Part shown: positions 17,156-31,769 of the stretch, one piece after another
How the letters are laid out: the number at the start of each line of letters is the position of its first letter
Numbering within the stretch: the stretch's first letter is position 1
Source of the DNA: Deltaproteobacteria bacterium
GTDB lineage: Bacteria > Desulfobacterota > Binatia > UBA9968
Direction: 5' to 3'
DNA length: 32,003 nucleotides
Assembly (NCBI GenBank): GCA_009692615.1
Contig: SHYW01000054.1
Location: forward strand, 1 to 32,003
The notes under the pieces: generated by a model
Told to the model about the DNA's origin: nothing
Databases searched by the model: none
What the model saw: only the letters and a program-made list of their open reading frames with translations
Made by a program: the position numbers and the translations under genes

Positions 17156-19213
17156 CTACTTCCGCACCAACCGTACATCCACCGCCGCCACACCGCCGCC
17201 TTGGGCGCGCACCATGATCGGATTGATTTCCATGTCCGAGAGTGAATTGCGATGCACCGCGAAGATCTCCGACAATCCGACCATCGCTTTCACCAGCGCA
17301 TCGATATCGCGCGGGCCTTGGCCGCGCACGCCTTCCAAAACTTTGTAACCGCGCAGCTCTTTGAGCATCGCGCGCGCTTCTTTTTCGTCGACCGGCAGCA
17401 AGCGTATCGATACGTCTTTCAAAACTTCGACGAAGATGCCGCCAAGACCGACCATCAAGAACGGCCCGTACTGCGGATCGGTGCGGGCGCCGATCAATAC
17501 TTCAGTTCCCTGGACCATTTCTTGAACAAGCAATTGCGCCTTGCCGGAAGTTTTCGCTAAAAGTTTCTGCCCGTCCGCTTGCACTTCATCGGCGTTCTTC
17601 AAGCCGAGCACTACAGCGCCGGACTCGGTTTTGTGCACGACATCGGCAGCGATCAATTTTAGCGCCACCGGAAAACCTATTTCCTTCGCCCGCGCCGCCG
17701 CGTCCGCCGCCGAATCCGCCAGCGCTTGCTTGGGCAGACCGATGCCTTTGCTCTGCAAAAGCTTGTTCAACATCTCGCCTTCGAGCACCGCCGGGTTGCC
17801 GTTTGGCTCAGGCAATTTTGGCACGCCGGCAATTCTCCGTTCGCCGTACAAACCCAATCCCGCCAACGCGCGCAACGTCGGCTTGATCGCTTGCAAGAAC
17901 GGCATGCGCGCTTCTTCCTGAAACGCTCGGCTCTCGTCGGTGCAGCTATAAGTGGAACGGCCGAAGGCCAGCACCGGCTTGTCGGTCGATTCGAGCACGC
18001 TTTTGAATAAATCGGCATTCCGCGTCTGACCGCGCGGTAGTTCGCCGTGGATCGCCAGCAGATCGACGCCGGGATCTTCGGCGTGCAGTTTAACGATGTT
18101 GATGAAGCCCGCTTCATCGCCAAAACCGGCGACGCCGCATTCAAGCGGATTCTCGACGGCTAATTCAGGTGGAATGAGCGGGCGCACCGCTTCTTTGGTC
18201 TTGTCGCTCAACTGCGCCAAGTTGGTGTTCAAGTCTTCGCAGTGATCGCAGATCAAACCTTTCATGCCGCCGGAGTTGACCACGATCGCGGCGCGGCTGC
18301 CCTTGGGAAATCTGCCAAGCATGAAAGCGAGCGTGATCTCGGTCATGTCTTCCAACGTCGGACAACGAATGATGCCCAAGCGTTTGCACATGGCGTCGAA
18401 CACTTCGTCGGCGCCGGCCAACGATCCGGTGTGCGAGATCGCTTGGCGTTTGCCCATCTCGGAGCGACCGAGTTTCACGGCCAAAATAGGTTTACCTTTT
18501 TGCAAAGCTCGCTCCGCCTCCGCCATGAATTCGTTGGGGCGGCGAATACCTTCGATCATCAGCGTGATCACTTTGGTGTCAGGATCGTCGATCAAGAATG
18601 AAAGATAATCGACCAGATCCAAACTCACTTCATTGCCGCTAGAGATCGCGTAAGAGAAGCCGATGCCGCGCTCGGTGGCGCCTTTGATCCAGTTGCCGAG
18701 GGAGCCGCCGCTCTGAAAAATTAAACCGACCGGACCTTTTTTTAGCAGCGGCGTCACGGTGGGAAAGGTCCACAACCCTTCGCCGACGGAATAGGAACCC
18801 ATGCAGTTGGGCCCGCAGATCACCATGCCGCTCTTGTCGCACAGCTCGCGCATTTGCTGCGCCCGCTCTTTGCCTTTTTCGTCGTCGCCCTCGCCGAAGC
18901 CGGCGGTGTAAATCGTCGCCGAGCGCGTTCCCAACTTCGCCGCTTCTTCGAGCACGCCGAGCACGGCGCGGGTTGGAATGAGAATCAGCAACTCGTCGGG
19001 AACTTCCGGGCAAGCCGCGAGACTCGGATAACACTTGTCGCCGTAAAGCTCTTGATAGTTGGGATTGATCAGATAGACGCCGCCGGGATATTTCGCGCCT
19101 TTCAAATTGCGATAAATCCCCTGGGGCCATGCGCCCTTTTGTGAAGCGCCGATAATCGCCACCGACTTGGCGCGGAGTAAATTTCCAACCGGTTTCGCCG
19201 TGAAAGTTGCCAT
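17156..19213 (-). CDS. ADP-forming acetate/acyl-CoA ligase, fused subunits
   Basis: A 685-residue fused protein that would convert an organic acid, CoA and ATP to acyl-CoA, ADP and phosphate, or the reverse. Domains in order: CoA-binding Rossmann (SVAIIGASQKG near residue 17), flavodoxin-like succinyl-CoA-ligase parts including the phospho-histidine region SHTGSLAG, and a C-terminal ATP-grasp domain (GFPVALKLIAADVVHKTESGAVVLGL). The frame stays open to 19390, but that extra 59 residues is translated repeat DNA. The ATG at 19213 has AAGGAAA seven bases upstream. It follows the ABC ATPase on the same strand, suggesting that the imported acid is activated here. The acyl substrate is unknown. Confidence 0.93.
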   Translation of the reverse strand: MATFTAKPVGNLLRAKSVAIIGASQKGAWPQGIYRNLKGAKYPGGVYLINPNYQELYGDKCYPSLAACPEVPDELLILIPTRAVLGVLEEAAKLGTRSATIYTAGFGEGDDEKGKERAQQMRELCDKSGMVICGPNCMGSYSVGEGLWTFPTVTPLLKKGPVGLIFQSGGSLGNWIKGATERGIGFSYAISSGNEVSLDLVDYLSFLIDDPDTKVITLMIEGIRRPNEFMAEAERALQKGKPILAVKLGRSEMGKRQAISHTGSLAGADEVFDAMCKRLGIIRCPTLEDMTEITLAFMLGRFPKGSRAAIVVNSGGMKGLICDHCEDLNTNLAQLSDKTKEAVRPLIPPELAVENPLECGVAGFGDEAGFINIVKLHAEDPGVDLLAIHGELPRGQTRNADLFKSVLESTDKPVLAFGRSTYSCTDESRAFQEEARMPFLQAIKPTLRALAGLGLYGERRIAGVPKLPEPNGNPAVLEGEMLNKLLQSKGIGLPKQALADSAADAAARAKEIGFPVALKLIAADVVHKTESGAVVLGLKNADEVQADGQKLLAKTSGKAQLLVQEMVQGTEVLIGARTDPQYGPFLMVGLGGIFVEVLKDVSIRLLPVDEKEARAMLKELRGYKVLEGVRGQGPRDIDALVKAMVGLSEIFAVHRNSLSDMEINPIMVRAQGGGVAAVDVRLVRK

Positions 19214-19294
19214 GTAATTTCCTTCTAATGTAAGAGATTGGAATGCTATGTCATAGACCCTAGGTGACTGCAAGAATTGCTGCGGTGAAGTCGG

Positions 19295-19363
19295 AAGGGC
19301 AACCACAGGGGGTTGCCCCTTACAATTCCGATTCTTCTTTGCGCCCTTTGCGCTCTTTGCGGT
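19295..19363. repeat. Composite repeat: GGGCAACC palindrome plus CTTTGCG nonamers
   Basis: A stem GGGCAACC/GGTTGCCC (19297-19304 with 19311-19318), then 18 bases, then three tandem nonamers CTTTGCGCC, CTTTGCGCT, CTTTGCGGT (19337-19363). The palindrome centre differs from the partner at 17060-17078, but the order, orientation and 18-base spacing are the same. Translated on the minus strand the nonamers give AKSAKGAK, a peptide often mis-annotated in such genomes. Confidence 0.8.
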
Positions 19364-19367
19364 TAAA

Positions 19368-20450
19368 TCATCCTCGTTCAGCAAACACATGCCAACGCTG
19401 CGCCGGAAACTCGACGGCCGCGTTCTGTCCGACGGCGACTTCGGTGTCGCCGGCGAGCTTGACGAGCAGCGTCACGCCGTTCAATTCAACTTCCAACAAT
19501 GCCGCGTCGCCGAGATAATTTTTACTGGTGATTTTACCGAGCTTCGTCGTAACCCCGTGGCTCGGCGCGGGCGAAACCTGCACATGCTCCGGGCGAATCG
19601 CCAGCGTCACGCCGGTTCCGGCAGCCATGCCATCGGGCACCGCGACCGCCATCGCGCCAAGCGGACAATCGACGCGGTCTTTGCTTTTGACTTCGCCCTT
19701 GAAGAAATTCATCTCGCCGACAAATTGCGCGACGAACAAACTCGCCGGCTTTGCGTAAATGTCCTGCGGCTGGGCGATTTGAATGATCTCGCCTTGGTTC
19801 ATCACGCAAACCCGATCGCCCATGCTCAGCGCTTCCGCTTGATCGTGGGTGACATAGAGCGTCGTCACGCCCACCGCTTTAGTAATTTTTCTCAGCTCGA
19901 CGCGCATCTGCTCGCGCAAGCGCGCGTCGAGATTGCTGAGCGGCTCATCCATTAAAAGAATTTTCGGCTCGGTCACGATGGCGCGCGCCATGGCGACGCG
20001 CTGTTGTTGGCCGCCGCTCAAGTCCGTCGCCGGCCGGTCTTCAAGACCGTCGAGTTGAACGAGCTTCAATGCCGCGCGCACTTTGGGAGCGATTTGATCC
20101 TTGGCGATCTTGCGCCGGCCTTTGATCAGCGGGAAGGCGACGTTGTTGAAGACGTTCATATGCGGCCAGATCGCGTAGGACTGAAACACCATGCCGATGT
20201 CGCGCTTTTCCGTCGGCACGTAGACGCCGCGCGCCGGAGAATTTACCAACGTGCCGTCGATTTCTAATTCGCCGGCGTCGGGCCTTTCCAATCCGGCGAC
20301 GCTGCGCAGCGTCGTAGTCTTGCCGCAGCCGCTCGGGCCGAGCAGTACGCAGAATTCTTTCTCGGCGATTTCCAAATCGATGCCGCGCAGCGCTTCGACG
20401 CGCCCACGCCGGCTATCGAACCATTTTCGCAAACCACGGATGCTGATCAT
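19368..20450 (-). CDS. ABC transporter ATP-binding protein (iron/spermidine-type, with TOBE domain)
   Basis: A 360-residue ATPase that drives the adjacent permease. Walker A is GPSGCGKTT (38-46), the Q-loop follows, the signature is LSGGQQQR (144-151) and Walker B is ILLMDEP (164-170) before LSNLDARLRE. The last third is a TOBE domain of the kind found in PotA, FbpC and CysA. GAGGA lies upstream of the ATG at 20450. The TGA at 19368-19370 is at the edge of the nonamer repeat. It is third in the set SBP-permease-ATPase-ligase on the minus strand. A substrate such as iron chelate or organic anion is likely; polyamine is possible but not supported by the binding protein. Confidence 0.95.
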   Translation of the reverse strand: MISIRGLRKWFDSRRGRVEALRGIDLEIAEKEFCVLLGPSGCGKTTTLRSVAGLERPDAGELEIDGTLVNSPARGVYVPTEKRDIGMVFQSYAIWPHMNVFNNVAFPLIKGRRKIAKDQIAPKVRAALKLVQLDGLEDRPATDLSGGQQQRVAMARAIVTEPKILLMDEPLSNLDARLREQMRVELRKITKAVGVTTLYVTHDQAEALSMGDRVCVMNQGEIIQIAQPQDIYAKPASLFVAQFVGEMNFFKGEVKSKDRVDCPLGAMAVAVPDGMAAGTGVTLAIRPEHVQVSPAPSHGVTTKLGKITSKNYLGDAALLEVELNGVTLLVKLAGDTEVAVGQNAAVEFPAQRWHVFAERG

Positions 20451-20468
20451 GGATCCTCGCTACGCTCG

Positions 20469-20546
20469 AAATTCCAGATTACAGATTCCATATTTCAGAT
20501 TTGATCAGATGGAAAAATTTTGAATCTGGAATTTGAAATCTAGAAT
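20469..20546. repeat. Intergenic hairpin with tandem ATTCCAGATT-type arms
   Basis: The left arm repeats ATTCCAGATT-like units, and the right arm (20515-20546) is an imperfect reverse complement (AATCTGGAATTT). It lies between the permease and ATPase genes and could modulate their ratio. The architecture matches the other tandem-arm hairpins in the window but the unit differs. Confidence 0.65.
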
Positions 20547-20568
20547 CGCGCTCAACGCCTCGCCCTCA

Positions 20569-22320
20569 CTATCCCAACTCGACTTCACCGATTCGAGCAA
20601 AGATGAATTTCAACAGACCGACGACTACCACGGCGAACAAAACTAGAATCACGCCCAACGCCGCGACCTGGGGCACCCAACCGCTGCCCCAAAACTGCCA
20701 GACGATGGTCGAGATGACGACGTTCTTGCGCGTGCCCAGGGTCAATGCCATGGTCACTTCGCGATAGGCGAGCATGCTGATCCAAATCCAGCTGTTGAAA
20801 ATGCCGCTCGCCACCAGCGGCAAGACGATCCGGCCGAGCACGCGCGCCGTCGACGCGCCCGCCACCTTGCCCGCTTCTTCCAGCTCGCGGTGCACTTGGA
20901 TCATCACGCCGTTGGTCGTGCGCGTGCCGTAGGCGATCCACGAGATCGTGTGCGCCAGCGCGATGATGATGACGGTGCCGTAAATCGGAAAATAAACTCG
21001 GTAGGCGAGACTCAAATAGGCCAGCCCGACGCCGAGAAGAATGCTCGGAATCGCGTGCGGCAAAAACGCCATGGTGTCCAGCGAACCACGGAAGCTCACC
21101 TGGGTGCGCACGACGATCCAGGAAACTAGCACGCTCAGCACCATCGTCGCGGTCGGCACCGCGATCATCAGAATCGCCGTGTTGATGAACGGCAGCGCGT
21201 CGACAAAATCGAAGATCGTCGCGAAATTGTTGAGCGAGATTTGTTCCCAGGCTTCGGCGGAGGGCAATTGCAAGTGCGGCAGCAAGGAAGCCCAGAGCAG
21301 CACCAGAAACGGAATGAACACTTCCATCGATAGATATAAGAACGAAAACGCCAGCGCCGCCCATTTCCATTTTCCCAATGCGATCTCGCGCGGCCGGTAA
21401 CCGCGCCCGGTGATCACCGTGTATTTTTTGCCATGCTGCACCAAGCGCACGTAAAAATAAGCGAGCAGCAGACCCGCCGCGAGCATCACCGCGCCATAGG
21501 CGCCGGCGATGCCGTAGTTGGGCAGACCGGTGGGCGGATTGGTCGATGTGAAAATCGACGCGCTGAGCACCAGTATGCGCGCCGGGAAACCGATGATCGC
21601 CGGCACTTCGAACACGGCGATGGCCGACATAAATAAATAAACCATCACGCCGGCGATGGCCGGCCAGGTGATCGGCACGTTGATGCGCAGAAAAGTTTGC
21701 AGCTTGCTGACCCCGGCAGTATAAGCCGCCTCTTCGAGAGATGGGTCCATGGTCCGGTACGCCGCGCCCAACATGAAAAACGCCGACGGCACGAACGATA
21801 CGCCTTGAATAAACGCCATGCCGGGTATGTTGTAGAGACTGATAATTGGTTCGTCGAGACCGAACAATTGCATCGCCCACTGGTTGACCAAGCCGATGCG
21901 CGGGCTTAGCAAAAGAATCCACGCGATGGTGCGCAGAAACACCGGCACGAGAATGCCCACGGTCATCAAAACATAGATAGTATTTTTGAACGGAATGTCG
22001 GTGCGGTTGAGCAGCCACACCAGCGGCACGGCGAAGGCCAGAGCCACGACCACCGTGCCGCAGGCGAACATCAATGTGTTGAGGAGAATTTTGTAGGTGC
22101 TTGGCGCGCTATAAACCGCGGCGAAGTTGGCCAGCGTCAGCGGCCCGCCCTCGCCGGGAAATCCCGTGCGCAGGCTCATCAGCACCACCATCACCAGCGG
22201 CACGCCGACCATGACGAGAAGCAGTGTTAATAAACCGCCGGCGAACCAGTCGATGCCCCCAACGCGTTCCCGCGTCGCGCCGCCCAGCGCGCTCAATTCT
22301 GCCGCCTTTACATTGGCCAC
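20569..22320 (-). CDS. ABC transporter permease, fused two-unit (FbpB type)
   Basis: A 583-residue inner-membrane protein with two fused permease units, as in iron(III)-type importers of the FbpB class. Each half has a set of membrane helices and one EAA loop that touches the ATPase: EEAAYTAGVSKLQTFLRINVP in the first half and EEAGKVAGASTARVLGRIVLP in the second. The start is a GTG at 22320, with a weak ribosome site. It lies downstream of the binding protein gene after 76 bases that contain a hairpin. This is the only permease in the window, while five binding proteins are present. Confidence 0.94.
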   Translation of the reverse strand: MANVKAAELSALGGATRERVGGIDWFAGGLLTLLLVMVGVPLVMVVLMSLRTGFPGEGGPLTLANFAAVYSAPSTYKILLNTLMFACGTVVVALAFAVPLVWLLNRTDIPFKNTIYVLMTVGILVPVFLRTIAWILLLSPRIGLVNQWAMQLFGLDEPIISLYNIPGMAFIQGVSFVPSAFFMLGAAYRTMDPSLEEAAYTAGVSKLQTFLRINVPITWPAIAGVMVYLFMSAIAVFEVPAIIGFPARILVLSASIFTSTNPPTGLPNYGIAGAYGAVMLAAGLLLAYFYVRLVQHGKKYTVITGRGYRPREIALGKWKWAALAFSFLYLSMEVFIPFLVLLWASLLPHLQLPSAEAWEQISLNNFATIFDFVDALPFINTAILMIAVPTATMVLSVLVSWIVVRTQVSFRGSLDTMAFLPHAIPSILLGVGLAYLSLAYRVYFPIYGTVIIIALAHTISWIAYGTRTTNGVMIQVHRELEEAGKVAGASTARVLGRIVLPLVASGIFNSWIWISMLAYREVTMALTLGTRKNVVISTIVWQFWGSGWVPQVAALGVILVLFAVVVVGLLKFIFARIGEVELG

Positions 22321-22368
22321 GGTATTCTTTTACGGTTCTTCCGGTTGCGATTTTTGCACGGCCTTGTA

Positions 22369-22390
22369 GGGGCGAAAAATCTTTCGCCCC
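22369..22390. repeat. GGGGCGAAA/TTTCGCCCC palindrome between binding protein and permease
   Basis: A perfect nine-base stem with an AATC loop (22369-22377 with 22382-22390). It is of the dispersed TAGGGGC palindrome class. On the minus strand it lies just beyond the binding-protein stop and could protect that mRNA or lower expression of the downstream permease. No T-run follows on the minus strand. Confidence 0.7.
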
Positions 22391-22396
22391 CCAAAC

Positions 22397-23425
22397 TTAT
22401 AGACCGGTAAAGCCAAAGATCTTGCCGTACTCGCGCGACAGACGGTCGACGGTTTCTGCGTGCTCCTGATTGATGTAGACGACTTTTTTCCCCTGCACAT
22501 ATTTATGCGCCGGCGTGCCGGGGATCAGCACCGAAGTCTGGCCGGCATACTTATCCCAAATTTTTTGCGCCTCCGCGGTCGCGAGAAATGCCGCGAACAG
22601 GTGGCCGGCCTTGGGATGGGCTGCGTTCTTCGGCACGCCGGCATGATAGGCCGGCGCGATCAGCGGCGACACCGCTTCGGCGAAAACCACCGGCGCGGTT
22701 TTGTTCTTGTCCGACTTCGCCTCGCTGTCGCTCAACGACACCGCGACGACGATTTCACCCAACAGCAAGCGGTTGTAGATTTCGCCAAGCCGGCCGAGAA
22801 TCAAATCTTGCTTGGTCAACTCCTTGACAAAATGCGTCGTCCTCTCCTCGCCCCAAGGGCCAACCGCCAAGCGCGCCATGTGATGGGTCGCGCTCGACAC
22901 GCCGATCTTGCCTTTCCATTTCGGGTTCAACAGATCTTCCCAACTCTTGGGTATATCTTTCGCCGACACCAACTTTTTATTGTAAGCCGGCAAAACGAAT
23001 TGATTGGCGAAGCTCACCGAGCCTCCGTCATATTGAATCGCTTTGGGGTCGACGCCGACGCTCTTGTAGTCGAAGGCTTGATGCATCTTCTTGACCCAGA
23101 GAGTCGCATGGTGGGCGTCGGTGACGACCATCAAATCCCACTCCGGCGGCACGCCGCTGGCCCCCAGACCGACGACTTTGCCGATGTCGCGCGTCATGTT
23201 GCCCGAAGGGCTGTACTGCATCTTGACGTTGACGGCGTATTTTTTATTGAACGCCGCGCTCAAAGCCTGGGCACCCTGAGGTGTCAACGTTGACGGCGCG
23301 TAAAACTCGATGGTTCCTTCCTGCTTGGCGCCTTTGATCAACTCGTCGATAGGAGCGGCGCCGGCGTTGGCCCCGCGGCTAAGCGCGAGAATGACCAGCA
23401 GACAGCAAACGAGAAAACTTTTCAT
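22397..23425 (-). CDS. Iron(III)-type extracellular solute-binding protein of the ABC set
   Basis: A 342-residue periplasmic binding protein that should feed the permease at 20569-22320. A signal peptide (FLVCCLLVILALSRGANA) is cleaved near GANAGAAP. The mature part shows the family pattern ELIKGAKQEGTIEFYAPSTLTPQGAQALSAAFNKKY. The C-terminal region keeps EYGKIFGFTGL. AAGGAG six bases before the ATG supports the start. The upstream space contains two overlapping dyads and the LVIVD gene further up. The ligand may be an iron chelate or organic anion; the neighbouring CoA ligase favours the latter. Confidence 0.92.
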   Translation of the reverse strand: MKSFLVCCLLVILALSRGANAGAAPIDELIKGAKQEGTIEFYAPSTLTPQGAQALSAAFNKKYAVNVKMQYSPSGNMTRDIGKVVGLGASGVPPEWDLMVVTDAHHATLWVKKMHQAFDYKSVGVDPKAIQYDGGSVSFANQFVLPAYNKKLVSAKDIPKSWEDLLNPKWKGKIGVSSATHHMARLAVGPWGEERTTHFVKELTKQDLILGRLGEIYNRLLLGEIVVAVSLSDSEAKSDKNKTAPVVFAEAVSPLIAPAYHAGVPKNAAHPKAGHLFAAFLATAEAQKIWDKYAGQTSVLIPGTPAHKYVQGKKVVYINQEHAETVDRLSREYGKIFGFTGL

Positions 23426-23452
23426 ATCGACTCCTTTGCGTTTCGAAAACCT

Positions 23453-23484
23453 ATCGCGACTCCGCGCGATAAGATCGTTTATCG
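23453..23484 (-). promoter_or_regulatory. Two overlapping inverted repeats upstream of the binding-protein gene
   Basis: ATCGCG-(6)-CGCGAT (23453-23470) and CGATAA-(6)-TTATCG (23467-23484) are each perfect six-base dyads with six-base centres. They overlap by four bases, about 30 to 60 bases before the start codon. They may be an operator pair or a folded leader. No clear -10/-35 pair was found beside them. Confidence 0.4.
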
Positions 23485-23531
23485 TAATAACTCGCCGAAT
23501 CCTTCCCTGCGGTGAATCATCCTTTTTTTAA

Positions 23532-23558
23532 TTTTGCGCTCTTTGCGTTCTTTGCGGC
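23532..23558. repeat. Three tandem CTTTGCGNN nonamers
   Basis: Units TTTTGCGCT, CTTTGCGTT and CTTTGCGGC lie between the LVIVD stop and the binding-protein promoter region. They belong to the same family as the arrays at 17097 and 19337 and the copies at 25995. Confidence 0.75.
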
Positions 23559-23565
23559 CAATCCC

Positions 23566-24765
23566 TCATTGAATCTTCGGCCCGGTATATTCCAGCACGT
23601 ACAAGCCGCCTTTGATCCGATCGGTCACATAAATCAGCCCGTCGGTGTCGACGTAGAGGTCATTGAACATCGGCGCCTTCTGTCCCTCCGGCGCCGGCGG
23701 AATGAAGTAGCCCACTTCTTCCGGTCGATACTGGTTGCGAATGTCGAACACACGCAGGCCGGCGTTGTAGTAGGTGACAAAGATAATATTTTCACTTTGA
23801 AATGACCCCGGCCGGTTCTCGTGCACGTTGTGCGGGCCGAAGCGCAGGCCGCGGCTGCAAAAATCGCCTTGCGGCACCGGACAGGTGCTGACGATCACCG
23901 GATTTCGCTCTTCGCGGATGTCGATAATCCACACCCGCTTTTCACCCTCTTTGCAGTCGTATTTCACCGATTCGTCCACTGCGACGACGAGTTTTCTTCC
24001 TGGCAGCGGCAACGTCGTGTGCGCGTAGCCGCCGAAGGGCGGGCTCCAGTCGATGTGGCTGATCGTTTTCGGTTTACCGATGTCGGAGATGTCGAGGATC
24101 GCCATGCCGGCATCGACCAGCGCGACGTAGGCGCGCTCGCCGTGCGGCACCGCGCCATGAACGTAGAAATGTTCGCCGGCGAACGGCGTCCAATCCGCCG
24201 GCGTGTCTTCGCCATCCTTAGTGCCGGGAATCCACCAGCGCCCTGCTTCTTTCGGACTCGTCGGATTAGAAATATCCGCGATCAAATAAGCCCGCTCGCG
24301 AATCCCCGGCAGATAGGCGCCGACATGGGCGTACTTGCCGTCGCTGAACCACATGCGATGCACGCCTTTGCCGGGCAATTTAAGATAGCCGATCTCGCGC
24401 GGCTCGGTGGGTTTCTCGATGGAATAAACTTTGATGCCCGCTTCGTTGGGCACGCTATCGGGAACCGATTTGTCGAAGTAGGGCCGCTCCTGATTTTGTA
24501 TCAGTATATCGCCGACAATCTGCACTTTATGCGCGTGAGTATTCGCCGCATGCGGCATCTGCGTGATCAACCGCGGCGCGCTGGGATCGGCAACGTCGAG
24601 AATGCTCAGCGCCATCGGCGAGGTACCGAGATGCGCCAAGTAAATATAGCGGCCATGCTTGACCAGTTGCATGCCGTCTCCATGGCCGTTCAAGTCATGG
24701 TGGCCGATCACCCGCATGTTGAAGCATTCGCTCTTGGCTTGCATCGCGGCGATTTCAGCACTCAT
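23566..24765 (-). CDS. LVIVD-repeat beta-propeller protein
   Basis: A 399-residue protein with about six LVIVD-type blades, for example LSILDVADPSAPRLI, LIADISNPTSPKEAGRW, AILDISDIGKPKTISHI, VWIIDIREERNPVIV and VFDIRNQYRPEEVGYF. Such repeats form a beta-propeller that usually works as a binding scaffold. No signal peptide is seen, although many relatives are exported. GGAG seven bases upstream supports the ATG at 24765, and a strong promoter lies at 24803-24832. It is first in the minus-strand set with the ABC importer and ligase, though 140 bases and a repeat separate it from the binding-protein gene. Enzyme activity is not indicated. Confidence 0.88.
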   Translation of the reverse strand: MSAEIAAMQAKSECFNMRVIGHHDLNGHGDGMQLVKHGRYIYLAHLGTSPMALSILDVADPSAPRLITQMPHAANTHAHKVQIVGDILIQNQERPYFDKSVPDSVPNEAGIKVYSIEKPTEPREIGYLKLPGKGVHRMWFSDGKYAHVGAYLPGIRERAYLIADISNPTSPKEAGRWWIPGTKDGEDTPADWTPFAGEHFYVHGAVPHGERAYVALVDAGMAILDISDIGKPKTISHIDWSPPFGGYAHTTLPLPGRKLVVAVDESVKYDCKEGEKRVWIIDIREERNPVIVSTCPVPQGDFCSRGLRFGPHNVHENRPGSFQSENIIFVTYYNAGLRVFDIRNQYRPEEVGYFIPPAPEGQKAPMFNDLYVDTDGLIYVTDRIKGGLYVLEYTGPKIQ

Positions 24766-24802
24766 GCATTTACTCCAGTGAATAGTTATCGAAGGCTGGG
24801 TT

Positions 24803-24832
24803 CTTATAATGGCGCGAGCGCGCGCTTGTCAA
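24803..24832 (-). promoter_or_regulatory. Promoter of the LVIVD gene
   Basis: On the minus strand a perfect TTGACA (24827-24832) is followed after 18 bases by TATAAG (24803-24808), a five-of-six match to the -10 box. The start point would be near 24796, giving a leader of about 30 bases that includes the GGAG site. Confidence 0.75.
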
Positions 24833-24910
24833 TCAGTATTCGGCTAGTAGTCAGCGAACGGACAGTGTGCTAAGTACACCCAACGAATGCGAAAGACGCC
24901 GGAGCTCATG

Positions 24911-25891
24911 ATGAAGAAACAGCTACTGATATTCGTCTTACTCGTCCTGTGTGGTTTCGCCCGCACTTCCGACGCGCAAATCAAACGCATCGCCGTCGCC
25001 TACAGCGCCGTCAGCGCGACGCAATCGTCGTTCTTCGTCACCAAAGAAGCCGGCATCTTCGAGAAGCACGGCCTCAACGTCGACCCGGTATACGTCGCCA
25101 GCGGCACCAAAGTCGCCCAAGCGGTGATCGCCGGGGAATTTCCCGTCGCTTTGGCCGGCGGCACTGTCGTGAATGCAACACTGGCTGGCGGCGACATCGT
25201 CATCATTGGCGGTTTGGTCAACGTGCCGTCGTTCTACGTCTACGTCCATCCATCGATCAAACGGCCGGAGGATTTCAAAGGCAAATCCATCGGCATCACC
25301 ACCTACGGTTCGTCGACGGACTTTTCGATTCGCTATCTGATCAAAAAATGGGGCATGGAGCCGGACCGCGATATCAAGATTTTGCAAATGGGCGGCCAGC
25401 CACAAATCGTCGCCGCCATGGTCGGCGGCAGCGTCCAGGGCGGCGTACTGTCTTCGCCGGCAAACTACCGCGCCGCCAAAGCCGGCTTTCACCAGCTCGT
25501 CGATTTCAAATCCGTCGGCCTTGATTATCCCACCGTCAGCCTGGTATCGACGCGCTCGTTCATCAAAAAGGATCCCCAGACCGTGCGCCGCTTCATGATG
25601 GCCTATAGCGAAGGCGTCGAGCGGCTCTATCGCGACAAGGAATTCACCATGAAGGTCATCGGCAAATACACCAAGACCGACGACCGCGAAGGCTTGGAAT
25701 CCGCCTTCGCCTTCGCCACCACATTCATCGAGCGCCCGCCGCACCTGCCATACAAGGCGGTGGAAACCATCTTAGCCCAGCTCGGCGAGAAGGACGCCAA
25801 AGCGCGCGAAGCCAAGCCGGAAGAATTCATCGACCCGACATTCTACAATGAGATGGAAAAATCCGGCTACTTCAAAACCATCGCCCGCTGA
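24911..25891 (+). CDS. NMT1/THI5-like solute-binding protein (orphan)
   Basis: A 326-residue periplasmic binding protein of the NitT/TauT type. The signal peptide (LLIFVLLVLCGFARTSDA) precedes IKRIAVAYSAVSATQSSFFVTKEAGIFEKHGLNVDPVYV, the conserved first lobe. Three in-frame ATGs are possible (24887, 24908, 24911). GGAG at 24901-24904 best fits the one at 24911. It is divergent from the LVIVD gene and lies ahead of the LigB-like dioxygenase. An imperfect dyad GTGTGC-TAA-GTACAC (24865-24879) is in its upstream space. It resembles the protein at 13788-14771 in layout and also lacks a local permease. It may bind an aromatic acid, which is inference from the neighbour. Confidence 0.88.
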   Translation: MKKQLLIFVLLVLCGFARTSDAQIKRIAVAYSAVSATQSSFFVTKEAGIFEKHGLNVDPVYVASGTKVAQAVIAGEFPVALAGGTVVNATLAGGDIVIIGGLVNVPSFYVYVHPSIKRPEDFKGKSIGITTYGSSTDFSIRYLIKKWGMEPDRDIKILQMGGQPQIVAAMVGGSVQGGVLSSPANYRAAKAGFHQLVDFKSVGLDYPTVSLVSTRSFIKKDPQTVRRFMMAYSEGVERLYRDKEFTMKVIGKYTKTDDREGLESAFAFATTFIERPPHLPYKAVETILAQLGEKDAKAREAKPEEFIDPTFYNEMEKSGYFKTIAR

Positions 25892-25906
25892 CGCTACGAC
25901 TCTCGG

Positions 25907-26032
25907 GTTCGGATTATCCTCTCGCAAAGCATGTCCTGAGCCAAGTCGAAGGAGCGCAAGGCTCGCAAAGTTTCGGATTTAATTTTTTTCCGAACTTAGC
26001 GCCTTTGCGCCTTTGCGGGAGATAATCCGAAT
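25907..26032. repeat. Large inverted repeat with a short element nested in one arm
   Basis: The left arm (25907-25977) and the right arm (25989-26032) pair through TTCGGATTATC...GCAAAG and AGCGC...TTTCGGA blocks. The left arm carries an extra 23 bases (25930-25952) that read CATGTCCTGAGC...GAAGG, a dispersed short repeat. Without that piece the arms match closely. The right arm contains CTTTGCG-type units (25995-26020). The loop is AT-rich. The structure follows the binding-protein stop and may end its transcript. Confidence 0.8.
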
Positions 26033-26102
26033 CCCCGTCAGCGTTTACACGACGCAAACCATCATGCTAAACAGCCAATGACCCATTCGGAGGAAGAAGC
26101 CC

Positions 26103-26954
26103 ATGGCGCAGATCGTTTCGATCATCGGCATCACGCACAATCCATTTATGCCGCGCCTGTTCAAACAGCCACAGCAACCGCCCGGCGCCGCCAAAGTCAA
26201 AGAACGGATCGCCATGATGCGGGAGAAACTCGCCGAGGCCAAAGTCGACGTGCTGGTATGCATCGGCAACGATCATCTGCACCAATTTTTTATGGACAAC
26301 ATGCCGGCCTTCATGATCGGCAAGATGGAGCAGTACGACGGAATTTTTTACGACGAAGAGCGCGAGTTCGGTTTGCCCAAGTACAAACTCCAGGGCGACC
26401 TCGACGTCTCCGACGCGATCATGGAAGGCGCCTTCGACCGCGGCGTCGATTTTTCTTATTCCAATGAATTGACCATCGATCATTCGATCGTCGTGCCGAT
26501 GATGTTCGTCCGCCCCGAGATGGATATCCCCATCGTGCCGATCCTGACCAACTGCATCGCTCCACCGATGCCGCGGCCCAAACGCTACTTCGAAGTCGGC
26601 AAAGCGCTGCGGGCCGCCATCGACAGCCTGCCGACGAATAAAAGAATCGGCGTGTTGGTCAGCGGCCACCTGTCGCTAGAAATAGGCGGCCCGAAAATGT
26701 TCGAGCCACGCTTGACCGATCCCAAATTCGACGCCAACGCGGTAGGCTGGATCGTCAACGGCAACATCGACGCCGCCACGGAAGCCTGCGCGCCGGAAAA
26801 AATAATCGAATACGGCAACATGACCAGCGGCTATCTGAACTTCATCATGATGATGGGCCTCGCCAATCTAGCAAAACCCTCCTACGCTGAAGGTTTGGAC
26901 GCCGGATTTCCGGCAATCCCGTTCTTCAACTGGGATGAACAGGTCAAAGTATAA
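26103..26954 (+). CDS. Class III extradiol dioxygenase, LigB-like catalytic subunit
   Basis: A 283-residue catalytic subunit of the LigB family, which opens catechol-type rings using non-heme iron or manganese and oxygen. Key elements: H12 in GITHNPFMPR, the GNDHLHQFF segment at about residues 55-63, and GHLSLEIGG with the likely catalytic histidine near 189. The C-terminal part is typical of protocatechuate 4,5- or gallate-type enzymes. GGAGG lies upstream of the ATG. A LigA-like small subunit follows 590 bases downstream, with two genes between. Substrate is inferred as an aromatic diol or its carboxylate. Related proteins include MEMO and AmmeMemoRadiSam parts, but the LigB match is better. 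Confidence 0.9.
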   Translation: MAQIVSIIGITHNPFMPRLFKQPQQPPGAAKVKERIAMMREKLAEAKVDVLVCIGNDHLHQFFMDNMPAFMIGKMEQYDGIFYDEEREFGLPKYKLQGDLDVSDAIMEGAFDRGVDFSYSNELTIDHSIVVPMMFVRPEMDIPIVPILTNCIAPPMPRPKRYFEVGKALRAAIDSLPTNKRIGVLVSGHLSLEIGGPKMFEPRLTDPKFDANAVGWIVNGNIDAATEACAPEKIIEYGNMTSGYLNFIMMMGLANLAKPSYAEGLDAGFPAIPFFNWDEQVKV

Positions 26955-26972
26955 ACGTCGAAAGAACTACCT

Positions 26973-27245
26973 ATGGACTTGAAGATTCTCTCAACCGTCT
27001 TCACTTCGGTCTTCATCGCCGAACTCGGCGACAAGACCCAACTCGCGACCATGCTGTTCGCTTCGGACAAGGACACCAGCAAACTGACGGTCTTTCTCGG
27101 CGCCGCCGCTGCGCTCGTGGTTACTTCCGCCATCGGCGTCGCCGCGGGCTCGACCATGTCGCAGTATGTGAGCGAGAAGACGTTGCAGTACGTCGCGGAA
27201 ATCGGTTTTATCGCTATCGGTATTTGGACTTTGGTGAAAGCGTAG
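26973..27245 (+). CDS. GDT1/TMEM165 (UPF0016) cation transporter
   Basis: A 90-residue inner-membrane protein with three membrane helices and the family motif ELGDKT (residues 17-22). Single-module GDT1 proteins of this size act as dimers and export or import Mn2+ or Ca2+. The GDK acidic motif lines the ion path. It starts 18 bases after the LigB stop and precedes a small conserved gene by five bases, so all appear to be in one transcript with LigA. The TAG at 27243-27245 ends it. Confidence 0.9.
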   Translation: MDLKILSTVFTSVFIAELGDKTQLATMLFASDKDTSKLTVFLGAAAALVVTSAIGVAAGSTMSQYVSEKTLQYVAEIGFIAIGIWTLVKA

Positions 27246-27250
27246 TCGTT

Positions 27251-27517
27251 ATGAAATACTTTGAGTTTCTTAGTGACATTACAACCCGGACTAGTCCGAT
27301 GACAACGAAAAAAACACGCACAAAAGTCCGCTTCGCGGTTTGCATAGACAATACGGAATATCCCGCTTCCCTAGAACTGCATAAATTGTATCGGGTCGTT
27401 TCCGACAAGGACGCGCAGAACGATGGAGATTTGCGGATTATCGACGAAAGTGGCGAAGACTACATCTATCCCAACGACTATTTTTTGCTGCTGGACACTC
27501 CTCGCGGCATTCTATAG
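27251..27517 (+). CDS. Small conserved hypothetical protein
   Basis: A short protein of 72 to 88 residues. It contains VRFAVCIDN, ASLELHKLYRVV, GDLRIIDESGEDYIYP and a hydrophobic C-terminus. This resembles a family of small conserved proteins common in environmental genomes, but I cannot name a function. Possible starts are 27251 (five bases after the preceding stop) and 27299; both have weak ribosome sites. It has no signal peptide or membrane helix. Its place between GDT1 and the LigA-like gene suggests co-expression. The D-E-S-G-E-D block could be a functional acidic patch. Confidence 0.7.
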   Translation: MKYFEFLSDITTRTSPMTTKKTRTKVRFAVCIDNTEYPASLELHKLYRVVSDKDAQNDGDLRIIDESGEDYIYPNDYFLLLDTPRGIL

Positions 27518-27539
27518 TCGCCCAATCAACGGAGGCCCC

Positions 27540-27851
27540 ATGAGCAAATACCTAATGAATAAACTGATCCATCTCGTCAACATGGATGAAAAAGCCGAAG
27601 AAAAGTATTGCGCCAATCCGCGCGCCTTCGTTGAGGAGTGGGAGAAAACCCAGAAGTTAAAATTATCGCCCGAAGAACGCGAAGCTCTGGCGGCCAAAGA
27701 TTACGGCAAGCTCTACGCCCTGGGCGCCCATCCGTTCACGCTCTGGAGTTTCACCGAAGCAGTCTGGGTCCATGAAAAAGGCCGCGAGGCGCTCGTCGCC
27801 GATTACAAAGCCCAGGCGGTGAAAGCTGGGTATCCGAGTTTTAAAACCTGA
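27540..27851 (+). CDS. LigA-like small subunit of class III extradiol dioxygenase
   Basis: A 103-residue all-helical protein of the LigAB alpha-subunit family. Helix patterns MSKYLMNKLIHLVNMDEKAEEKYCANPRAFVEEW and LSPEEREALAAKDYGKLYALGAHPFTLWSF are characteristic: the small subunit covers the active site of LigB. GGAGG a few bases upstream supports the ATG at 27540, although the frame is open further back to 27423. It is the partner of the LigB-like gene at 26103-26954. Its stop overlaps the 3' end of the Rieske gene on the other strand by 11 bases. Confidence 0.85.
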   Translation: MSKYLMNKLIHLVNMDEKAEEKYCANPRAFVEEWEKTQKLKLSPEEREALAAKDYGKLYALGAHPFTLWSFTEAVWVHEKGREALVADYKAQAVKAGYPSFKT

Positions 27852-29166
27852 GAGGAAGGCAATAGGCAATAGTTCGGAAAAAGATCAGATCCGAATTCTT
27901 ACTATTGCCTAATGCCTGTTGCCTCGTATATTCCATCCAATCGCTCACTCCGCTGACCAAATCCGAAATCACCAACAGGTGCGATAAATTGTTTTTCTCT
28001 GCGTCGCGAATCACATGGGGCGGCTCGCCGCCGGCTTGGATGTCGCGGATGGCTTTTTCCATGAGCTTGCGCGCCGCGACGATGGCGATGTCCGACGACA
28101 CGATATTTTCCTGAGTGCGGTTTTGCACCGCGCCCTGGCTGCCGGTAGCGAAGGCATCGTGACTTTGAAAGCCGCTGCCCATGCCTGTGTAAGTTTGCGT
28201 CTGCATCGACGCGCGGTCTTGCATGAAATTATTAGTTTCGTTGCGCACCGGCCGGTAGTGCTCGTCAATTTCACTACGCGCCTTGGCGATCGCCGCGGAA
28301 TCCAGCGGCTCTTCCCGATTGAAAAAGAAGCAATACTTCCAATGATGCGTGTCGTCGATCGGTACATGCCAGTTGATGCCATAACCTTGTCCGCCGGTTT
28401 GCCCGGGAAAGGTGCTCAAATTGGGCAGGACGAAGTTCGACACGCGCAAATAAATTTTATCGCCGCCCATCTGGCGCACGGAATAAATGCGCACGCCGAA
28501 GTCAGTGATCTCAACCTCCAGCGCCGGCGGCTGAGCTTTGGCGATTAGATTGTAATGCGACTCATCGCTGCCGCGCACGCCGGTGTAGCTCTCTTCTTTA
28601 TGTTCGAGAAACTTGTGCAGAAACGACAGATGCACCGGATCGATGTTGCCTTCATTGGCCTGCAGGTAGTTGCATTCATGATAAACTTTGTAGACGCAGA
28701 CGTGATCGGTCGGCTGATTGAGAAATTCATAGTTGGGCAACAGCGGCGCTTCGCCCGGTCCCATGTAAGTAAAAATAATTCCGCCACGCTCCTGGCACGG
28801 ATAAGCCAGATGATGAATCTGGTCGCGATTGACGCCGCAGCCGGGTTCGCCGGGCTGTTCCAAACAACGGCCGTGAATATCGTAGAGCCAGCCATGATAA
28901 AGACAGCGCAGCCCGCCGTCTTCGATGCGTCCGTAACTCAAGTCCGTGCCGCGGTGCGAACAGTGAATGCCGAGCAAGCCGATGCGTCCCTGATCGTCGC
29001 GAAACAACGCCAACTCTTCACCGAGAATTTTCACCGGCAGCGGCGCGCCGCCGGCGGGCAATTCTTCCGCCAGGGCCACCGGCTGCCAATAACGGCGCAG
29101 CAGCTCGCCGGCCCGCGCGCCAGGGCTGGTTTGCGTCAACAGTTGATTTTCTTCGTTGGTGATCAT
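27841..29166 (-). CDS. Rieske non-heme iron oxygenase, large subunit
   Basis: A 441-residue large subunit of an aromatic-ring-hydroxylating oxygenase. The Rieske [2Fe-2S] centre is at C69-x-H71 and C88-x2-H91 (motifs IHCSHRGTD and RCLYHGW). The catalytic domain has NEGNIDPVHLSFLH (171-184), which contains the iron-ligand histidines and the bridging aspartate D176. It resembles phthalate- and vanillate-type enzymes, which need a separate reductase not seen in this window. It follows the binding-protein gene after 25 bases. The last 25 or so residues, before the TAA at 27841-27843, are translated from the repeat at 27851-27925, so the native end was probably a little earlier. Confidence 0.92.
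   Translation of the reverse strand: MITNEENQLLTQTSPGARAGELLRRYWQPVALAEELPAGGAPLPVKILGEELALFRDDQGRIGLLGIHCSHRGTDLSYGRIEDGGLRCLYHGWLYDIHGRCLEQPGEPGCGVNRDQIHHLAYPCQERGGIIFTYMGPGEAPLLPNYEFLNQPTDHVCVYKVYHECNYLQANEGNIDPVHLSFLHKFLEHKEESYTGVRGSDESHYNLIAKAQPPALEVEITDFGVRIYSVRQMGGDKIYLRVSNFVLPNLSTFPGQTGGQGYGINWHVPIDDTHHWKYCFFFNREEPLDSAAIAKARSEIDEHYRPVRNETNNFMQDRASMQTQTYTGMGSGFQSHDAFATGSQGAVQNRTQENIVSSDIAIVAARKLMEKAIRDIQAGGEPPHVIRDAEKNNLSHLLVISDLVSGVSDWMEYTRQQALGNSKNSDLIFFRTIAYCLPLRF
27851..27925. repeat. Hairpin with GGCAATA-type tandem arms, entering the Rieske 3' end
   Basis: The left arm contains GGCAATAGGCAATAG and the right arm (27891-27925) the inverse (CTATTGCCTAATGCCTGTTGCCTC). Both arms end in TTCGGA/TCCGAA. 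It sits between the convergent LigA-like and Rieske genes and supplies the Rieske C-terminus and stop. It may work as a bidirectional terminator. Confidence 0.8.
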
Positions 29167-29191
29167 GTCTCGATTATGACCGTCCCTAAAT

Positions 29192-30307
29192 TTATTTCAA
29201 AAGCTTCGCAGCCAGCGCGGTCGCCGGCATGCGAATTTTTTTCACCGACGACTCGAGATGGGTTTCTAATTTCAAATAATCATCCACCGTCATCACATCT
29301 TTGCATCCCTGGCTGCCGTATTCCTTCAGCCACTCGGTGTTGACGTCGAGGCGGCGCGACCCTTGAGTCATTGCTCTACCGTAAAGTTCTTGGCCCTCTT
29401 TACTGAGCAGCCAGTTGACAAAAATCTTGGTGGCATTCGGATGGGGCGGATTTTTAACCACGCTGATCACGCCGCTGCCGTTGTTGGCGTGGGCGCCCTC
29501 TTTGATGCGCGACACCGGCTTCACCGGCAGCCCGGCTTTTATGAACGGCTCATAAGTGTAATGACTCAAGCCGACGGTGAAGGCGAGCTTGCCCTTGGCC
29601 AAACTGTCCGCCATTTGACGCTGGTTTTGCGTGATCAACATCTCTTGCTGCGCCAGCTTAGTCAAAAACTCTTCGCCTTTAACTTTCCAGATAAACGACC
29701 AAGTATTTTGCCCGGAGCCGGGATTGCGCGGATCGAGAAAACCGATGCGCCCTTTCCATTTCGGATTGAGCAAGTCATCGAAGGATCGAATCTCGCTCGC
29801 GTCCGCTTCCTTGCTATTGTACCACCAAGTCTCGCTGGTGTAGCAGAGAAACGCATAGGCGTGCTTCTTCGTGCTGATGTTGTCTTCCCAAATATGGCCA
29901 CCCCACCAATATTTCGGGTCCTTCACTTCCGGCAGGATCAAATAAGAATTCAAATCGTCCGCCGAACCCGCCGACACCATCGCCAACGGTGTCGCGCCTC
30001 CGGCGACGAGAATATCGTAATAGCGCACGCCCGCGCTGTACTCGGTATTGATGCGGGTTACGTTCTCCGGTCCGCGTGCCGACATCAGTTCGATGGAAAT
30101 GCCGAATTTACTTTTGAACCTCTCGCCGATGAGCACGCGCAGCTCGTTGCTGGCGGGAATGCCGACGACGACGATGCCTTCCTTCTTCGCCGCGGCGAGC
30201 GTTTTGTCCCATTCCGCTAGCGCTTGCGCGGAAACTGCATAGGCCGCGCACGTCAACTTCAGCGCGAGAACCAGCGACACCGAATTGAATTTAGCCAATC
30301 TCTTCAT
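29192..30307 (-). CDS. Iron(III)-type solute-binding protein of the UbiD/Rieske operon
   Basis: A 371-residue periplasmic binding protein with a signal peptide (SLVLALKLTCAAYAVSAQ) and family patterns such as WDKTLAAAKKEGIVVVGIP at the mature N-terminus. The frame is open to 30520, but the ATG at 30307 starts the signal peptide; the upstream part lies in ubiD-like coding DNA. The ATG is seven bases after the UbiD stop and the gene ends 25 bases before the Rieske gene, so the three are one operon. No permease is adjacent. It probably binds an aromatic carboxylate or its chelate; this is inferred from the neighbours. Confidence 0.9.
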   Translation of the reverse strand: MKRLAKFNSVSLVLALKLTCAAYAVSAQALAEWDKTLAAAKKEGIVVVGIPASNELRVLIGERFKSKFGISIELMSARGPENVTRINTEYSAGVRYYDILVAGGATPLAMVSAGSADDLNSYLILPEVKDPKYWWGGHIWEDNISTKKHAYAFLCYTSETWWYNSKEADASEIRSFDDLLNPKWKGRIGFLDPRNPGSGQNTWSFIWKVKGEEFLTKLAQQEMLITQNQRQMADSLAKGKLAFTVGLSHYTYEPFIKAGLPVKPVSRIKEGAHANNGSGVISVVKNPPHPNATKIFVNWLLSKEGQELYGRAMTQGSRRLDVNTEWLKEYGSQGCKDVMTVDDYLKLETHLESSVKKIRMPATALAAKLLK

Positions 30308-30314
30308 GCGCGCT

Positions 30315-31769
30315 TCAAGCTCCGGGAAACGGTATGACGTTGCGAAATTTCTTGATGACACTTGCGCGCAGCTCGCGGCTCGAGCGGCTGACTTTAGGAA
30401 ACTTGTCTTTCCAATGAAACGGCCGCACGGCGTAGAAAATCGCTCTTCCGTTGGTGTGATCTTTATTTTCTCTTTTCTCCGGCGGCATGCGCGGATCGAG
30501 CGGCGTCGACCACGCACCATCGATAATGTCGATATTGGTCGGCGGATCGACCCGCGTCATCATCGCCCACAAAACTTCTTTCATGTTGGTTGGATCGATG
30601 TCGTCGTCGACCACCACAACATAGCGCCCATTGCGCGCCGACGCCGCGCAGCTGACGGCGGCGATACCGGCTTGCTTAGCATGGCCGGGAAATTTCTGCT
30701 CGATGGCGACCACGGTCATGTAAGGCGAATGATTGTAGACGCCGACGACGTTTTGTACGCCGGCAGCTTCCAATTGATCCCAGAGAATTCCAGCCGTCGG
30801 ATTGCCGTCGATCTTCATCGCGCCGGTCCACAACGGCGCCTCTTCTTCGAGGATCGGATCGTTGCGGTGATAAATTGCTTTAACGCGGATCACCGGCTGC
30901 GCTTCGCCGGTGCCAATCGTGCCGCCGGAATAATAACCCGGCCATTCGCCGAACGACCCCTCGGCGCGCGCTTCTTCGCTGGGCGGTGGAATCTCGCCTT
31001 CGATGGCGATCTCCGCGCCGGCGGGAATCGGCAAGCCGGTTACCGGGCCGCGAATGAATTCCAGCGGCTGGCCCATCAAACCGCCGGCGTAATCGAGCTC
31101 TGATTTGCCATAGGCTAGTTTCGTATGCGCCAGAGTGAAGAGCAATGGATCGCTGCTGAACGTCGCCACCACCGGACAGCTTTTTCCCTGCTGCCAATAC
31201 TTCGCGCAAATCAGCCGGCCGTCTTGCCCAGGACTCATCCACAGGCCGAGGAGATTTTTCTCGTGCAGCTGAATCCGGTACGTGCCGGCATTGATGAAGC
31301 CGCTGTCGGGGTCGGCGTTGATCAGACAATCGCCGGTGCCGATGTAGCGCCCGCCGTCGCCGTCATGAAAACGTGGCGCGGGAAATTTAAAGAGATCGAC
31401 CTTGTCGCCCTCGATGACATTTTCCATCAGTGGCGCAGTTTTCACCGCCGCGGCGGGAATGGACTTGCCCGACTTCATCTTACGCGCTAGCAGCCGCACC
31501 ACTTCGAGCTTGGTTTTATCCGGTGAAATGCCGAAGGCCAAAGCAGTCCGTTTATAGTTGGCAAAAGCGAGACTGACCAGACGAAAGCCGGCGGGATAAT
31601 CCTTGATCTTGTCGAACAGCAGCATCGGCCGCTCGTCTAGCTCAGCGGTCGCTTCGATCAACGCGCCGATCTCGTTGTTCCAATCCGCGCCTTCGATCAA
31701 GCGCCACGCGCTGATTTTCTTGGCTTCCTCGATGAAGCCGCGGAAGTCGTGATAGGGAAGTGTGTCCAT
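30315..31769 (-). CDS. UbiD family prenylated-FMN (de)carboxylase
   Basis: A 484-residue UbiD-like enzyme that adds or removes a carboxyl group on aromatic or unsaturated acids using prenylated FMN. Conserved elements: GTYR with R165, EGSFGEWPGYY with E270 and E275 (the catalytic acidic residues), and the metal-binding VDDDIDPTN at about 387-395. The size fits the family. GGAG eight bases upstream supports the ATG at 31769. It leads the operon UbiD - binding protein - Rieske oxygenase. No UbiX gene, which makes the cofactor, is in this window. Substrates could include phthalate, protocatechuate or similar acids. Confidence 0.95.
   Translation of the reverse strand: MDTLPYHDFRGFIEEAKKISAWRLIEGADWNNEIGALIEATAELDERPMLLFDKIKDYPAGFRLVSLAFANYKRTALAFGISPDKTKLEVVRLLARKMKSGKSIPAAAVKTAPLMENVIEGDKVDLFKFPAPRFHDGDGGRYIGTGDCLINADPDSGFINAGTYRIQLHEKNLLGLWMSPGQDGRLICAKYWQQGKSCPVVATFSSDPLLFTLAHTKLAYGKSELDYAGGLMGQPLEFIRGPVTGLPIPAGAEIAIEGEIPPPSEEARAEGSFGEWPGYYSGGTIGTGEAQPVIRVKAIYHRNDPILEEEAPLWTGAMKIDGNPTAGILWDQLEAAGVQNVVGVYNHSPYMTVVAIEQKFPGHAKQAGIAAVSCAASARNGRYVVVVDDDIDPTNMKEVLWAMMTRVDPPTNIDIIDGAWSTPLDPRMPPEKRENKDHTNGRAIFYAVRPFHWKDKFPKVSRSSRELRASVIKKFRNVIPFPGA

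Follow-up and report, generated by a model that had tools for sequence, protein, structure and literature searches.

A UbiD, binding-protein and Rieske oxygenase trio abuts a LigB-like/LigA-like unit in a Binatia genome

We examined a 32,003-nucleotide stretch of DNA (hereafter the window; positions 1 to 32,003 of the forward strand of contig SHYW01000054.1, GenBank assembly GCA_009692615.1) from a Deltaproteobacteria bacterium of the GTDB lineage Desulfobacterota; Binatia; UBA9968, in which an earlier note had proposed that seven genes at 26103–31769 form an aromatic-carboxylate module. All seven genes were recovered by gene calls from our own codon-score script and, for six of them, by Pfam matches. 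The forward strand carries, in order, a LigB-fold protein with an altered active site (26103–26954, 283 amino acids (aa); Pfam LigB, 100.3 bits, over cut-off), a single-domain GDT1 protein (26973–27245, 90 aa; Pfam GDT1, 78.3 bits, over cut-off), a small protein (27299–27517, 72 aa) and a LigA-like protein (27540–27851, 103 aa; Pfam LigA, 27.9 bits versus a cut-off of 25.3, obtained with a longer start of this protein). The reverse strand encodes a trio composed of a UbiD-family decarboxylase (30315–31769, 484 aa; Pfam UbiD, 180.5 bits, with UbiD_C and UbiD_N, over cut-off), an extracellular solute-binding protein (29192–30307, 371 aa; SBP_bac_8 at 48.6 bits, over cut-off, SBP_bac_11 and SBP_bac_1) and a Rieske oxygenase of the phthalate-dioxygenase/LigX type (27841–29166, 441 aa; Pfam Rieske, 66.5 bits, and LigXa_C, 114.3 bits, both over cut-off). 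As described previously, seven bases (30308–30314) separate the UbiD and binding-protein genes.

The six larger genes are under purifying selection relative to the same-genus genomes G001 and G003. Ratios of nonsynonymous to synonymous substitution rates (dN/dS) ranged from 0.05 to 0.11 across ten computable comparisons (the LigA-like gene against G003, which was saturated, and the Rieske gene against G003, which has no Rieske gene there, were left out), and these genes are therefore more than chance open reading frames (ORFs). The small ORF, for whose product no family match was found in Pfam, is 77% identical over 61–62 residues to copies near LigB in genomes G010 and G017. Loci of these two genomes (L160 and L162, respectively) additionally hold extra pieces of LigB and of the small ORF beside a full LigB, as if the spot had been partly duplicated. 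The forward and reverse units had been described as facing each other across overlapping 3′ ends, and the LigA-like and Rieske genes do overlap by 11 bases; the overlap looks incidental, however, because the C-terminal 21 residues of the Rieske protein have no counterpart in G001 and sit over a dispersed inverted repeat (27851–27925; seven BLAST matches including itself in 1.38 Mb of the genome), and because the two genes lie ~80 bases apart in G001. We rejected the overlap as a meaningful feature on these grounds.

Catalytic residues are retained in both enzymes of the trio. The UbiD protein keeps N160, R165, E253, E270 and E275, among which R165, E270 and E275 are presumably the catalytic R-E-E set, and it resembles the 7pda branch of the family both in these R/E/E residues and in a nearly full-length match to 7pda, its best solved relative (~374 bits; a literature search on 7PDA found no paper). 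Asp183 stands at a metal-site position where 7pda has His, the N160 and E253 positions being kept; G001 also has Asp, and G003 and G007 have His. Since this alignment column varies (86 His, 30 Gln and 13 Asp in 150 rows), the change was set aside as evidence. Judged by its sequence, the Rieske protein is an oxygenase of the phthalate-dioxygenase type with intact motifs (CSH, CLYH, DPVHLSFLH and QDR); among solved chains it lies nearest to 7fjl (232.7 bits), 9ina and 7fhr, of which 7fhr bears the title of a putative phthalate 4,5-dioxygenase. The N-terminus of the binding protein resembles, by eye, a signal peptide.

The order of the trio is conserved in relatives. A UbiD tree grouped the window copy with those of G001, G003, G007, G013, G019 and G039 (support 98/97), with another UbiD copy of the window's own genome, on contig C99, falling in the sister clade. 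Four of the seven genomes in this clade (the window's, G001, G007 and G019) share the order UbiD, binding protein, Rieske, with the trio proteins 66–87% identical among them; the G013 contig stops just downstream of UbiD. Orthologues of the binding protein (69–81% identical) lie beside a trio-type UbiD and/or Rieske gene in five of the six genomes in which they were seen (G001, G003, G006, G007 and G019, not G015), the next relatives of this protein being 54% identical (20 genomes). Among public-genome loci (71 of 78, those with UbiD called; in two of the seven left out, L035 and L070, UbiD does have a Rieske gene next to it), a Rieske gene occurred within three genes of UbiD in 10 of the 43 relatives that are ≥55% identical and in 2 of the 28 below this value; for a binding protein the counts were 22 of 43 and 12 of 28.

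Beyond the Rieske gene, the trio continues in G007 and G019 into an oxidoreductase, then a cupin and a permease, with a further cupin upstream of UbiD in G019. The best solved relative of the G007 oxidoreductase is a 4,5-dihydroxyphthalate dehydrogenase (337.6 bits), and a 74% copy of this dehydrogenase lies on contig C99 of the window's genome, in an operon with the second UbiD and a Rieske gene. In that operon the cupin carries Cupin domains, its NCBIfam matches are weak and far below cut-off, and a search for a solved relative returned none; a candidate cupin upstream of UbiD in G003 did not match it. The longer operon of the relatives reads UbiD, binding protein, Rieske, dihydrodiol dehydrogenase, (binding protein), cupin and permease.

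Compared with the aerobic ortho-phthalate 4,5-dioxygenase pathway, the Rieske oxygenase and, in the related operons, the dehydrogenase close to a solved 4,5-dihydroxyphthalate dehydrogenase are alike, whereas the UbiD-family protein in the trio operon and the missing dehydrogenase in the window copy are not. The usual dihydroxyphthalate decarboxylase, Pht5, is not known to be of the UbiD type. Our preferred reading is that the trio may represent a truncated route of the phthalate type, with UbiD as its putative decarboxylase. Several observations weigh against this interpretation. At the protein level, UbiD is over cut-off for no substrate-specific NCBIfam model, the LigXa_C domain of the Rieske protein also fits an O-demethylase, and the weak solved relatives of the binding protein bind iron(III) or pyridoxal phosphate rather than aromatics, its NCBIfam matches being 2-aminoethylphosphonate binders far below cut-off. 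At the level of gene order, the window trio comes without a dehydrogenase (the dihydrodiol type found in G007, G019 and the C99 operon is absent), a reductase or a permease; G003 has UbiD and the binding protein with no Rieske gene before LigA, in G006 the binding-protein and Rieske genes stand without a trio-type UbiD, the G039 UbiD adjoins a LigB relative with no adjacent binding protein, and G015 keeps the binding protein alone. If the Rieske protein were instead a LigX-like O-demethylase, the trio would import a methoxylated aromatic acid, demethylate it and decarboxylate it. We consider this fairly unlikely: the LigXa_C score of 114 bits and one NCBIfam Rieske match to a monooxygenase (far below cut-off) would suit it, but the phthalate 4,5-dioxygenase title of a nearest solved chain would not, nor would the dihydrodiol-type dehydrogenase in the G007 and G019 operons, which demethylation does not need.

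The LigB-fold protein shares with LigAB protocatechuate 4,5-dioxygenase, a class III extradiol enzyme, its fold, His12 and His58 (the iron-ligand histidines) and a neighbouring LigA-like gene. It differs at two positions, with Leu192 where the base His would stand and Gly243 where the iron-ligand Glu would stand (which we take to be His195 and Glu242 in LigB numbering); all four residues are invariant in 24 aligned copies. Counting against this comparison, Gly243 was assigned to the iron-Glu position by aligning the protein with paralogues and by the LigB numbering that we assumed. Because residues at the base-His and iron-Glu positions are missing, ordinary ring opening by this protein is doubtful, and it is probably not a standard extradiol dioxygenase. 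Its predicted model (mean predicted local distance difference test score (pLDDT) 71.5) matches extradiol dioxygenases, 2-aminophenol dioxygenase chains first, with a template modelling (TM) score of 0.69 against 1bou_B, and NCBIfam models were matched far below cut-off only. A LigB paralogue on contig C72 keeps the base His and iron Glu, but its second iron His is replaced by Gln; active-site variation in the LigB superfamily is therefore not rare.

Conservation of the forward-strand unit extends across the order. In 24 relatives, LigB is 70–90% identical across 226 residues or more, which makes 25 of 35 genomes of the order with the window's own; G024 and G032 carry pieces at the ends of contigs, G021 has a 40-residue piece, and no copy of that kind was found in seven of the 35. 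Within the fetched flanks, LigA lies beside LigB in 22 of 27 loci, and GDT1 either separates the two genes or adjoins LigB in 11 of 27. The GDT1 protein matches its profile and contains AELGDKTQ, in which E-x-G-D-K-T is presumably the GDT1 motif.

A wider map of 17 distinct LigB loci (several on short contigs; L136 and L164 are one place) showed which genes recur around this unit. An NMT1-type binding protein (24887–25891, forward strand; Pfam NMT1, 79.7 bits) has a copy at ≥61% identity beside 10 of the 17 loci, the window included, and the divergent LVIVD-repeat gene (23566–24765, reverse strand; Pfam LVIVD) likewise occurs in 10, window included, as does a zinc alcohol dehydrogenase that is not in the window. 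Several loci are also accompanied by divergent binding-protein, permease and ATPase genes, represented in the window, all on the reverse strand, by a second solute-binding protein (22397–23425; SBP_bac_11/6/1), an ATP-binding cassette (ABC) permease with two permease domains (20569–22320; BPD_transp_1) and an ABC ATPase (19368–20450; ABC_tran and TOBE_2). This ATPase–permease–binding protein–LVIVD operon, divergent from the NMT1 gene (region 19368–25891), recurs beside the LigB unit in relatives, and an acyl-CoA-ligase-like gene (17156–19390) adjoins it in the window.

The trio, or part of it, is found beside the LigB unit at four of the 17 mapped loci: the window, G001, G003 (no Rieske) and G015 (binding protein only). 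This distribution bears on the proposal that all seven genes form one pathway that binds, hydroxylates and decarboxylates a single aromatic acid and finally opens its ring by means of LigAB. The units do adjoin in the window's genome, in G001 and G003, and in G015, where the binding protein alone represents the trio, and more ordinary LigB relatives lie near trio-type UbiD genes elsewhere (L053 and L071), but 13 of the 17 mapped loci (several of them short) are without the trio and the LigB active-site positions are changed in 24 of 24 aligned copies. We regard the single pathway as distinctly improbable, and one joint module including LigAB as unlikely. What stands of the module proposed in the earlier note is the trio, which fits aromatic (di)carboxylate catabolism, whose order is conserved (the window's genome, G001, G007 and G019) and which in two relatives leads on to the dehydrogenase-like gene; the joint module is only partly supported, because the LigB unit has mostly other neighbours and an altered active site.

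To place the binding protein beside UbiD in context, we set it against base rates in the window's genome (G000; 5.05 Mb, 186 contigs). Across 40 unselected 20-kb stretches (L176–L195 and L249–L268, selected by contig number from contigs that lack a UbiD match), binding proteins account for 90 of 736 called genes (12%), as counted with hidden Markov models that were built from genes near UbiD and may favour such regions; stretches held 0 to 10, with none in 13 of 40. Extrapolation from the two sets of 20 stretches gives ~656 and 492 binding proteins in the genome; a stricter threshold lowers these figures to 581 and 416. The earlier suggestion that a binding protein beside UbiD is unusual was rejected for this genome on that base rate. 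Sheer abundance might then account for the adjacency with no tie to the enzymes, the more so as UbiD genes sit in catabolic regions and binding proteins may be concentrated there regardless. We hold this to be very improbable: a close same-strand binding-protein neighbour accompanies 58 of 591 control genes but 14 of 47 UbiD genes (odds ratio 3.9, P = 2.6e-4; UbiD genes ≥300 aa, that in the L088/L089 overlap counted once), the odds being similar with a 20-stretch control (14 of 47 versus 33 of 294), and the trio order is kept in four genomes spanning genera. A neighbouring binding-protein gene is weak functional evidence in this lineage unless set against the base rate.

The same genome holds 48 UbiD matches and one UbiX match (240.8 bits versus a cut-off of 108.9), which, together with the abundance of binding proteins, is our most surprising observation. 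It also has 43 Rieske-domain matches (a few in short frames), at least 150 NMT1 matches (the best 150 of 479 first-look candidates having been scored), 120 SBP_bac_6 matches (4 below cut-off) and 80 matches to permease domains (2 of them below cut-off, and several genes contributing two). First-look NMT1 candidates number 42–482 in the window's family, 16–61 elsewhere in the order and 4–8 in six other families of the class. UbiD matches range from 16 to at least 60 each in 33 of 39 genomes (the window's included), and none were found in six genomes of other families; G012 has 126 first-look UbiD candidates, of which the best 59 were scored. Products weakly like NMT1 or phosphonate-binding proteins are encoded near UbiD genes at L097:2100–3104, L099:5631–6593 and L022:5695–6708, and may be either binding proteins or enzymes with the same fold.

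Taken together, these are known enzyme kinds in an unusual combination and lineage. We lean, with modest confidence, towards two units of separate history that abut here: a shortened phthalate-type operon with UbiD, and a LigB-like/GDT1/LigA-like unit that is conserved throughout the order amid neighbours of its own and whose LigB-fold protein has lost two catalytic positions. In the former, the binding protein may act in the periplasm to capture an aromatic acid bearing one or two carboxyl groups, which the Rieske oxygenase, with its motifs present, would dihydroxylate using a reductase encoded elsewhere. A 4,5-dihydroxyphthalate-type dehydrogenase from contig C99, rather than from the window, could restore the ring; UbiD, with its catalytic residues in place and prenylated flavin mononucleotide (prFMN) from the single UbiX, would remove a carboxyl group from the presumed product, and another enzyme would open the ring. 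If so, a UbiD decarboxylase operates within an aerobic dihydroxylation pathway, and an order-wide LigB-fold protein could not use the standard extradiol mechanism. More speculatively, and at a rather low probability, this Binatia-related family would have evolved a modular toolkit covering numerous aromatic acids, made up of some 420–660 binding proteins (ABC-type and for the most part orphan) within 5 Mb, a denser repertoire than that of Rhodoplanes, and of dozens of UbiD proteins served by one UbiX; the trio would be a capture–hydroxylate–decarboxylate unit with UbiD replacing the usual dihydroxyphthalate decarboxylase of the aerobic phthalate route, and LigB–LigA a new non-extradiol enzyme with this fold.

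Published systems offer partial parallels. In the accessible part of a review, the aerobic phthalate pathway uses 4,5-dihydroxyphthalate decarboxylase, and UbiD appears among the anaerobic phthaloyl- and isophthaloyl-CoA decarboxylases (PMC13040137). As far as the available text goes, Rhodoplanes sp. Z2-YC6860 has a similarly very large, lineage-specific binding-protein set (434 genes in 8.2 Mb, >6% of genes; PMC5994714), although the tripartite tricarboxylate type was counted there and ABC-type NMT1 and SBP_bac proteins (12% of sampled genes, 5.05 Mb) here, so that the families differ between counts. Binatota with mono-aromatic degradation enzymes are described in the part consulted of another source (PMC9535955). 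In the main text of a Binatota study (Murphy et al. 2021; PMC8262859), a term search returned no hit for UbiD, aromatic, substrate-binding or ABC transporter, and the accessible parts of papers on SAR202 enzyme-family expansion contained no occurrence of UbiD. Literature searches on UbiD with Binatota or with binding proteins in metagenomes, on orphan substrate-binding proteins and on the solved dehydrogenase structure found none; that on UbiD and expansion had none on point by title among the matches listed. None of the papers listed was seen to describe the expansion of UbiD or of binding proteins reported here, within a coverage that leaves out subscription papers and preprints.

Two further features were noted in the window. 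The contig end (31811–32003) is repeat-like (four BLAST matches including itself), and the visible gene order stops there, upstream of UbiD. A dispersed repeat at 25896–26050 has 34 BLAST matches, including itself, in 1.38 Mb of the genome.

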